Origin: Pigoraptor vietnamica | Taxonomy: Eukaryota; Opisthokonta; Filasterea | DNA: 33,876 bases | NCBI GenBank assembly: GCA_943704525.1 | Contig: CALSCQ010002949.1 | Location: 1 to 33,876 of the forward strand | Direction of reading: 5' to 3' | Shown: positions 5,947-15,539 of the stretch, one piece after another | Layout: each line of letters begins with the position of its first letter | Numbering within the stretch: position 1 is the first letter of the stretch | Made by a program: the position numbers and the translations under genes | The notes under the pieces: generated by a model | Seen by the model: the letters and a program-made list of their open reading frames with translations, nothing else | What the model was told of the DNA's origin: nothing | Database searches by the model: none

Positions 5947-8655
5947 ATGGCGGCGGTAAATCCCGAGGTGGAGAGTCAGATTCGCGCGAATGTGCCGTGG
6001 TCGAAACTGCCGGCGAACGTGCGCGCGATGCTCGGGAATGATCAGTCCGTGTGGGAGCACCAGGTGGGTTTCAGGGGCTGCGGGCGCGCGCGCGTGTGTG
6101 CGTGTGCGTGTGTGCATGTGCGTGTGTATGTGCGCGTGCATGTGCGTGCGTGTGCGTGTGCGTGTGCGTGTGAGTGCGTGTGAGTGCGTGTAGTCCGTGT
6201 GCGCGTGCGCGTACGTGTGTGTGTGTGTTTGTGACTGCAAAGCTAGTGTTGTGTGCACTCGCGTGTTCTGGCGAGCATGGACTGTGAGTGTGTGTGCTGA
6301 TGCAAGCTTGTGTCTGCTCAATTCCGCCCATTTCGTTCAGGTCGTGCAATACTCCGTGCGCAATCAGCTGCGATGGCGGCAGAACATCGTGCGACAGGCG
6401 TGCAGGGACGAGCGGCGCTACTACGAGGACATGGTCAAGTTCAGCCGAGAAGCCCTTATGGTGCGTGCGCGCGTGGCTGTGCAGAGAAGTCGAATGACAA
6501 CTGCTGTGCACTGTCCGTTGCGCGTGGTGAATCGTGTGCCTTCCCGGCAATCTGTGGCCCGTGTGTAGTAACCCAAGTACAATGGCATGGTTATTGTCGT
6601 GGCTTTGCACGTGCATGCAATTGACGCGCCCTCCCCTCCCCTTCCCCCCCTCCAACCTCCATTCAGCTGTACCCCTATCACCTGTCGGATGTCCTCGTGA
6701 AGGGCCTCCGCGTGACGCCGTTTGCCTATTACTCGCAAATGGTCTTTGACATTATGGACGCCGAGAAGAGCTACGACGCCCTCCCAAACTTCACTGCGGC
6801 GGACTGTGGGTGCCATGTGTACGGATGGGCAGAGGACGTGATTGGGAAGGGGTGAAGGGGATGTACGGGAATATCACGGAGTGCGTTCGACCTGCCACAC
6901 ACAGACACACGTTTTACGCACGCACACGGCTTGCAATCAAGGCTCCCATGCGCACGCGCGCACTCCTCACGTCTTCTCTCGTCACGTGCGCACTCCTCAC
7001 GTCTTCTCTCGTCACGTGCGCAGGCCTCCGTCTGCTCGGGATCGGGCGCAACCAGTACATCGACATGATGAACCAGAGCCGCACGAAGGGGTGGGCGTGG
7101 CGTGCGAAGCGCAAGGCGACCCTCAAGAGCCTCCTCCCGACGCACCCCGTCCCCATCACCATCGAGCACTGGTGGATCGTCCACATTGGCTACGTCACGG
7201 AGGATGACGTCAGGGTGAGTGCGTGCATTTAAGCCGAAGGCTGCGTGCCAGCGTGCGCAGCGCGGAACTGCTTGCTGTCGCACCTGTGCGCCGTCCTCAC
7301 TTGCGTGTGACCAACGAGCAATTTGGCTGGGCATTGCACAGTGCCTCTGCGTGTATGCATGCGTGTGTGTGAGAGAGTCCGCCTGAGCATTCTGCCTCCT
7401 GCAGAATTGCACCCCGGGCGAGCACCGGTGCATCGACCACCTAATCGACCACGGCGCGCGGGCGGCGGGCGAGCTCGAGTGCGGCGTCGTCCACTCGCTT
7501 TACACAAAGGGCCTCGTGTACCTCGAGGTGCCCATCGACGACGGCGACCACGTGACCGTCCCGCCCCTCGAGGGCTTTGTGATGAACCGCGTCCTCGGCG
7601 ACTACTTTGAGACGGTGCTGTACAAGATATTCGTCTCTATCGACGAGCACACGCCGATTTCGGACCTTGCGGGCATGCTGCAGATCGACCTCCAGCTCGC
7701 GAAGGTGAGTTTGTTTCGCCGATCTGCGCTGTTTTGCGCGTCCGCTGTGCGTGGGAAGAGAGAGTGTGTGTACTGCATTGCATGTCATGTGTTGGCGGTG
7801 GTGCGTGCTGAAGTGAACCGCCGCGTGTTGTTATAGCCCCCAGTGCTCTTGATGGTCCTCTTCACCGCCGTGGCTGAGCAAACGTCGCGTGCAGAATGCC
7901 GTGTCCGTGTACTGTCGCCTTGGCTTTGCGAAGAAGAAGAACGTCGATGTCGATCTCTCCGACAAGCGATGGCACCCGTCGTGGAGCCGGGAGGCGGCCG
8001 CCGCAGAAGTGAGGTGCGTTGTGTCGGATTGCCTTCTGCGCACCGCATGGACACGCGCGATTTTTCGCTGAAGAGCTCACGTGATGCACACCCAGCCACA
8101 AGCAAGGGCCGTCCCTCCTCGAGGCCAAGACCGACGAGGCCACCGCGCCCGCAGCGGCTGCGCCTGTGGCGGGCGAGCTCCTGGCCGAGCGCGCGCAGGG
8201 TCGCCGCAAGCGCGTGGCGCTGTTGTTTGACTCTACGCTGACTGCCTTTCTGATGATGGGCAACCTGTCGCCTGGGCTGAAAAAGCACGCCGTGACGATG
8301 TTCGAGGTGGGAAAGCTCTCGGACGAGTCGCTCGACAGCTTCATGGCCGAACTCAACAAGGTGGGGCGCTGCGGCCGCGGAGGGTGTGCGAGGGGCGCTT
8401 GTAAGGGGCTTTCGATGAACGTGTGAATGCCTGTTTTTAAACCGCCACTACATCTTAGGTGGAGGGCACGAGCGAGGGCGAGGCGCAGAGGTATTTTGAC
8501 CACGCGGTGACACTGAGGGACACGCTGGCCGTGCTGCGATACAATCCCGCGCTGGGCGTGTGCGACGACGGCGAAGGCGGCAGCGAGGGATTCGGCCTCG
8601 GTGAGTGCTGTGTGCATTGTGTTTGTGAAGATCCGTGTGTGTGTGTGTGTGTGTG

Positions 8656-8734
<79 letters not shown>

Positions 8735-15114: not shown

Positions 15115-15119
15115 AAAAA
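15115..15119 (-). terminator. Pol III terminator (T5) of tRNA-Sec
   Basis: On the minus strand a run of five T lies 9-13 nt beyond the 3' end of the tRNA (GCGCTCTTTTTCGCC). This is the standard RNA polymerase III stop signal, and the position fits. Confidence 0.8.
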
Positions 15120-15127
15120 GAGCGCGA

Positions 15128-15214
15128 CGCTCGAAAGGCGGAATCGAACCGCTTCGAAACTAATCGACGAGAGGTTTGAAGCCTCTCCCCCGCACCAGCG
15201 AAGTTCATTCGAGC
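15128..15214 (-). tRNA. tRNA-Sec(UCA): Selenocysteine tRNA, anticodon UCA
   Basis: The 87-nt minus-strand sequence folds like eukaryotic tRNA-Sec. The 9-bp acceptor stem starts GCTCGAATG and pairs with CCTTTCGAGC, with the same internal U-U mismatch as the human tRNA, and the discriminator base is G. The D stem has 6 bp (CTTCGC/GCGGGG) around TGGT. The anticodon arm is GAGAGG-CTTCAAA-CCTCTC, giving UCA, which reads UGA. A long variable arm (TCGA/TCGA stem) and a 4-bp T stem (GCGG-TTCGATT-CCGC) follow. The 9+4 layout, 6-bp D stem and 87-nt length separate it from tRNA-Ser and from a suppressor. No intron and no encoded CCA are seen. It implies Sec synthesis through SerRS, PSTK and SepSecS and UGA recoding through SECIS elements elsewhere in the genome. 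Confidence 0.95.
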
Positions 15215-15539
15215 AAAGGGACTGGCACACGCACGCCCTTATGAGCGCAGCAGTGCTGGACGTCGCGTTACTTATGGGAGATCACGTGAGATACTTGGTG
15301 TGGTAATTACAACACAAGTGAAACTAAAATGACGAAGATCAATACTGATTGTATGGCATTGTATAGGGACGCATTTTAATACTTAATCGGGAATTTGAAA
15401 CGGCGCGCTGTTTTGGGGTGCCGCGGCGTGTCACTTGCTGACACATCGCCGATCACTGTCGTCTAAAGAAAAAACACGTCTTGCTTCTTAAGCGTCGAAT
15501 CCATTTCGTCGTGCGTGTGGTTTTCTGCTCTTATCCAAA
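15215..15539. other. Divergent intergenic region between tRNA-Sec and ACBP
   Basis: These 325 bp hold the tRNA-Sec upstream elements, ATCACGTGAG at 15281-15290, an AT-rich stretch at 15300-15390, and TTTGAAACGGCGCGC at about 15394, some 140 nt before the ACBP start. No other gene is seen. Confidence 0.5.
15238..15280 (-). promoter_or_regulatory. PSE-like and TATA-like elements upstream of tRNA-Sec
   Basis: Counting upstream of the tRNA 5' end on the minus strand, CATAAG lies at about -24 to -29 and CTCCCATAAGTAACGCG at about -50 to -66. The second resembles the animal proximal sequence element (CTCACCATAAACGTG), and both sit where type 3 Pol III promoters (U6, animal tRNA-Sec) carry their TATA and PSE. 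Motif similarity to a distant lineage is weak evidence by itself. Confidence 0.45.

Follow-up and report, generated by a model that had tools for sequence, protein, structure and literature searches.

Run over the whole window (the entire 33,876-nt stretch of DNA analysed here), ARAGORN reports a single tRNA gene, a tRNA-Sec with anticodon tca on the minus strand at 15128-15214, and thereby returns the coordinates at which the preliminary description had placed a selenocysteine tRNA. The covariance model for this family, RF01852, is matched at 15129-15214 of the same strand with 74.9 bits (E 8.2e-14) against a gathering cut-off of 47 bits; the alignment covers model positions 1-91 of 91, and no other Rfam family reaches its gathering threshold in a cmscan search of the window. 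The gene measures 87 nt, including a G in the discriminator position (G73, at 15128, just after the acceptor stem). Folding of its strand gives -37.2 kcal/mol with a z-score of -2.86, and 3 of 200 shuffled sequences do as well. The preliminary description had cautioned that ordinary tRNA finders often miss or misname such genes, a concern that did not materialize, since ARAGORN both located the gene and named it properly.

The tRNA gene is placed between exons of a gene for an Fcf2 protein (137 bits) and exons of a gene for an acyl-CoA binding protein (116 bits). Further Pfam matches in the window are to XAP5, to FAM91 and EB1 (two of the ten open reading frames in one set) and to DnaJ, Sec7 and HMG-CoA synthase (three of ten in another). 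The genes are spliced, and the host genome is that of an intron-rich eukaryote. Long GT/TG runs occur in many introns, at 2221-2254 and 8637-8732 of the window as well as at other loci.

All stems of the tRNA can be traced on the minus strand. The acceptor stem joins nine nucleotides at 15206-15214 (5' side) to nine at 15129-15137 (3' side, from the pairing script), with eight of the nine pairs standard and a T-T opposition at position 8; this is the U-U acceptor mismatch pointed out in the preliminary description, and human tRNA-Sec has the same one. The D arm (15188-15203) consists of a 6-bp stem, with 6/6 pairs formed, and a 4-nt loop, TGGT. The anticodon TCA, which reads UGA, lies at 15177-15179 (tRNA position 36 in the ARAGORN output) within the loop CTTCAAA, enclosed by a stem in which the script likewise finds 6/6 pairs. 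Both the fold and the pairing script give the T arm (15138-15152) a 4-bp stem and a 7-nt loop, and inside this arm, at 15140-15150, stands GGTTCGATTCC, which we take to be B-box-like. The pairing script, the 4-bp T stem and ARAGORN together bear out the 9+4 fold, UCA anticodon and 6-bp D stem that had been read from this DNA.

The remaining element, the variable arm, was described beforehand as long. An arm is indeed present, but with its linkers it occupies only 16 nt (15153-15168) and forms about four standard pairs, which is short for tRNA-Sec; set against the consensus in the RF01852 alignment, four bases are missing from its loop and one from a linker. By this deficit of five bases the gene departs from eukaryotic tRNA-Sec, which it resembles in its 9/4 fold, its UCA anticodon, its D arm (a 6-bp stem and a 4-nt loop) and G73, as well as in the presence of one copy above threshold. 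At 87 nt, or 90 nt with CCA, the molecule is among the shortest allowed by the range of 90-101 nt given in PMC5330540.

Two elements flank the gene on the minus strand. A run of five T residues (15115-15119), beginning 9 nt past the gene, is likely to be its Pol III terminator. On the other side the TATA-like ATAAGGGC (15235-15242), beginning at -28, may belong to a Pol III promoter of the external type. A U6 gene for promoter comparison was found in the assembly neither with RF00026, a model that also gave no match in control genomes, nor with a pattern tolerating up to three mismatches, and because no U6 was found the promoter idea for ATAAGGGC is offered only as a remark.

Other tRNAs might be misread as tRNA-Sec, namely a UGA suppressor or a variant of tRNA-Ser or tRNA-Leu whose variable arm is long, and the Rfam scan of the assembly (32,526,649 bases in 1395 contigs) bears on this possibility. 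RF01852 has three matches there, one of them above the cut-off; the two sub-threshold matches, considered as second tRNA-Sec copies, were dismissed when ARAGORN called them tRNA-Ser(tga) (contig C1126, 43.4 bits) and tRNA-Leu(taa) (contig C416, 39.1 bits). These two tRNAs do draw sub-threshold matches, but the gene in the window matches the model from end to end, at 74.9 bits, and combines the 9/4 fold with the 6-bp D stem, 4-nt loop and UCA anticodon, and SepSecS, eEFSec and TGA-bearing members of selenoprotein families occur elsewhere in the genome. Misidentification of this kind is extremely improbable. The tRNA-Leu match on C416 belongs to a tandem pair of tRNA-Leu genes (caa and taa, at 840-925 and 1001-1088 of locus L014), each followed by a near-identical AAGGGGTTGCGCCCCCTTGCGACGCGTTT.

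The preliminary description had gone on to predict a full Sec pathway of six factors (SerRS, PSTK, SepSecS, SPS2, eEFSec and SBP2). Four of them were sought in the genome (SepSecS, eEFSec, PSTK and selenophosphate synthetase), and the prediction holds for SepSecS and eEFSec. The genome search uncovered SepSecS on contig C1374 as seven exon matches, which when joined score 534.8 bits with TIGR03531 (cut-off 224.85) and match solved SepSecS chains, among them PDB chain 7mdl_A at 508.5 bits. For eEFSec, TIGR00475 was run against the assembly and had 11 matches, spread over nine contigs. The weakest match, on C314, is the one that marks the factor: with the exons of C314 joined by hand, the eukaryote-specific third domain PF21208 is matched at 104.3 bits (cut-off 27) and the solved eEFSec chain 5izk_A at 411.1 bits. 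With TIGR00475, a model of bacterial type, the joined protein reaches 134.7 bits, short of the cut-off of 242.25. Translations from the other eight contigs were rejected as eEFSec, as they read as other translational GTPases, namely mitochondrial IF2 and EF-Tu, two GTPBP1/2-like proteins, an HBS1/eRF3-like protein, eIF5B, a TypA-like protein and EFL1. The gene models for SepSecS and eEFSec, like that for SelL below, were joined by hand and are approximate at the exon joints.

The other two factors sought, PSTK and selenophosphate synthetase, did not emerge. No selenophosphate synthetase (SPS/SelD) was found in the assembly with TIGR00476, a degenerate motif, PF00586 or an SPS1 segment, the lone PF00586 match reading as PurM, and no PSTK was found there with the one query used, TIGR03575. 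These two absences carry little weight, because U6 also escaped detection in a genome whose genes are spliced. That SPS, PSTK and U6 are missing may come from gaps in the assembly, from exons of small size or from a true lack of the genes, all three being compatible with the results. In Phytophthora capsici, according to an excerpt of PMC5330540, tRNA-Sec is missing from the assembly and present in the reads.

Selenoprotein genes were sought by way of PF10262 and SECIS_1 only, and three were recovered in which a TGA stands in frame at a redox motif. One encodes a SelW of the MIEN1/Rdx12 type, another SelT, and the third a SelL-like protein. UGA-recoded selenoproteins had been predicted from the tRNA, and these three genes would answer that prediction. 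The PF10262 search of the assembly yielded two matches, on contigs C721 and C106. The SelW-like gene of C721 (locus L025, 1047-1710) has three exons and reads MSSVQVHVEYCGA-TGA-GYYGYF, with the motif CGA-TGA-GYY; it scores 59.7 bits with both PF10262 (cut-off 22.6) and TIGR02174 (cut-off 34.2). Its protein is closer to the MIEN1 chain 2ljk_A (63.2 bits) than to the Selenoprotein W chain 2npb_A (21.7 bits), and its CxxU aligns with a CxxC; Selenoprotein W2/Rdx12 (MIEN1, C17orf37) is its nearest known counterpart. It ends in CTIF, which we take to be a CaaX-like and possibly prenylated tail.

Relations within this branch are sketched in an excerpt of PMC3316567, in which vertebrate SelW2 is the Sec form, Rdx12 is derived from vertebrate SelW2, and in Rdx12 of mammals Sec is replaced by Cys. 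The C721 gene has an in-frame TGA at this position. A tentative reading, which we regard as possible rather than probable, is that C721 encodes a protein of the MIEN1/Rdx12 branch that contains Sec and is probably prenylated, in a eukaryote that is presumably not an animal. If this were true, a lipid-anchored Sec form would predate the vertebrates; mammalian MIEN1, with its Cys, would then be the derived state of an ancient selenoprotein and not a late offshoot.

The second PF10262 match, on C106, is a SelT gene of four exons that reads VLKFLFCVS-TGA-GYRKTYEVF (PF10262 52.1 bits, cut-off 22.6; TIGR02174 73.4 bits, cut-off 34.2). It resembles Selenoprotein T in its CVSUGYR motif, its C-terminal STGAFEI stretch and its four-exon gene. 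In the SelW-like gene and in SelT alike, an intron interrupts CxxU within its Cys codon, between the second and third bases and three codons ahead of the TGA for Sec; the introns concerned are at 1079-1151 of L025 (SelW-like) and, for SelT, the first intron of the gene in L024 (minus strand).

The SelL-like gene, on C826, reads VALVFLRHLA-TGA-LP-TGA-RDHVRAL, its two TGA codons making up a UxxU (locus L018, 1790-1802). The peroxiredoxin-type protein scores 34.4 bits with PF13911 (cut-off 27) and 96.9 bits with the SelL-related NF040769, under the cut-off of 120, in a model whose start and exon joints are approximate; no PDB chain is matched at E up to 1. It shares with Selenoprotein L (UxxU) a pair of TGA codons at a spacing of three codons, and a single hairpin lies in its 3' region. 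In an excerpt of PMC3316567, SelL is described as having two Sec residues two residues apart, both served by one SECIS, and SELENOL is listed among algal selenoproteins in an excerpt of PMC7539508.

Downstream of each of the three genes is a hairpin with the layout RUGA ... AA ... GA, the AA falling 12-14 nt past the UGA; the distances 3' of the stop are about 100 nt for SelW, about 390 nt for SelT and about 50-60 nt for SelL. The hairpins are probably SECIS elements, and they are taken as such chiefly on account of their position, each following a gene that bears TGA and belongs to a known selenoprotein family. The scores are all below threshold: C826, which carries SelL, is the only SECIS_1 match in the genome scan at E up to 5, and against the gathering score of 35 the Rfam SECIS values are 22.8 bits (E 0.85) for SelL and 16.7 bits (E 7.4) for SelT, with no Rfam SECIS listing for the SelW hairpin at E up to 10. 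By their fold z-scores the hairpins are little more stable than shuffled sequence (SelT -0.74, SelW -1.58, SelL -1.44). A loose hairpin scan does not discriminate, as hits appear in 13 of 20 shuffled sequences for SelW and 9 of 20 for SelT; hits at least as stable as the candidate appear in 2 of 20 (SelW, -22.6 kcal/mol) and 4 of 20 (SelT, -16.4 kcal/mol), and the hairpin chosen for SelT ranked second in that scan. A strict scan, which was set after the candidates had been seen, passes SelW and SelT and misses SelL. Its background is one hit in 188,104 nt, counted on both strands of the window and the other loci with overlapping loci and the SelW, SelT, SelL and E. coli loci left aside. MAFFT misaligned the three hairpins. 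The lack of a covariance match above threshold, or of any SepSecS, eEFSec or SECIS in the genome, had been named in the preliminary description as what would refute it; the covariance match, SepSecS, eEFSec and SECIS-like hairpins are all present.

Sub-threshold SECIS evidence, together with the failure to find SPS/SelD and PSTK, is what would be expected of a relic, in which Sec decoding is in decay and only the tRNA gene and part of the machinery survive. Several observations make such decay very unlikely: the tRNA-Sec retains all its stems, SepSecS and eEFSec are strongly conserved, and nothing but the Sec TGA interrupts the reading frames of the SelW-like gene and SelT. The gaps in the pathway may reflect the assembly or the search, U6 being missing as well, and an excerpt of PMC4561486 describes SPS as conserved in all selenoprotein-encoding genomes.

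The assembly is divided among 1395 contigs and every Sec gene lies on a separate one, so that the window contig (C1224) could in principle stem from another eukaryote in the culture. C1224 has ordinary eukaryotic genes, several of them with GT-repeat-rich introns, and by reading, GT-repeat introns are common to C1224 and the contigs of SepSecS, eEFSec, SelW and SelT; with these shared features a foreign origin seems very unlikely.

Taken as a functional and apparently single-copy tRNA-Sec of a Sec-decoding eukaryote, a reading to which we assign a probability of roughly 95%, the window gene would take its place in a pathway that is known from other organisms. In that pathway the tRNA-Sec would be charged with serine by SerRS, and the serine would then be phosphorylated by PSTK. 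SepSecS, using selenophosphate, would convert the phosphoserine to selenocysteine, and eEFSec would bring the Sec-tRNA to those UGA codons whose mRNA contains a SECIS hairpin. All the parts found are of known kinds, and from their sequences the genome looks to be Sec-decoding by the eukaryotic route.

One more eukaryotic genome would thus be marked as Sec-decoding. If the genome decodes Sec, TGA in its selenoprotein genes is not to be read as stop, and standard gene models would truncate or misread at least three genes here; the earlier warning that models ending at UGA may be truncated was a fair one for the three selenoprotein genes. Solid cases of this kind help to chart the gains and losses of Sec decoding.
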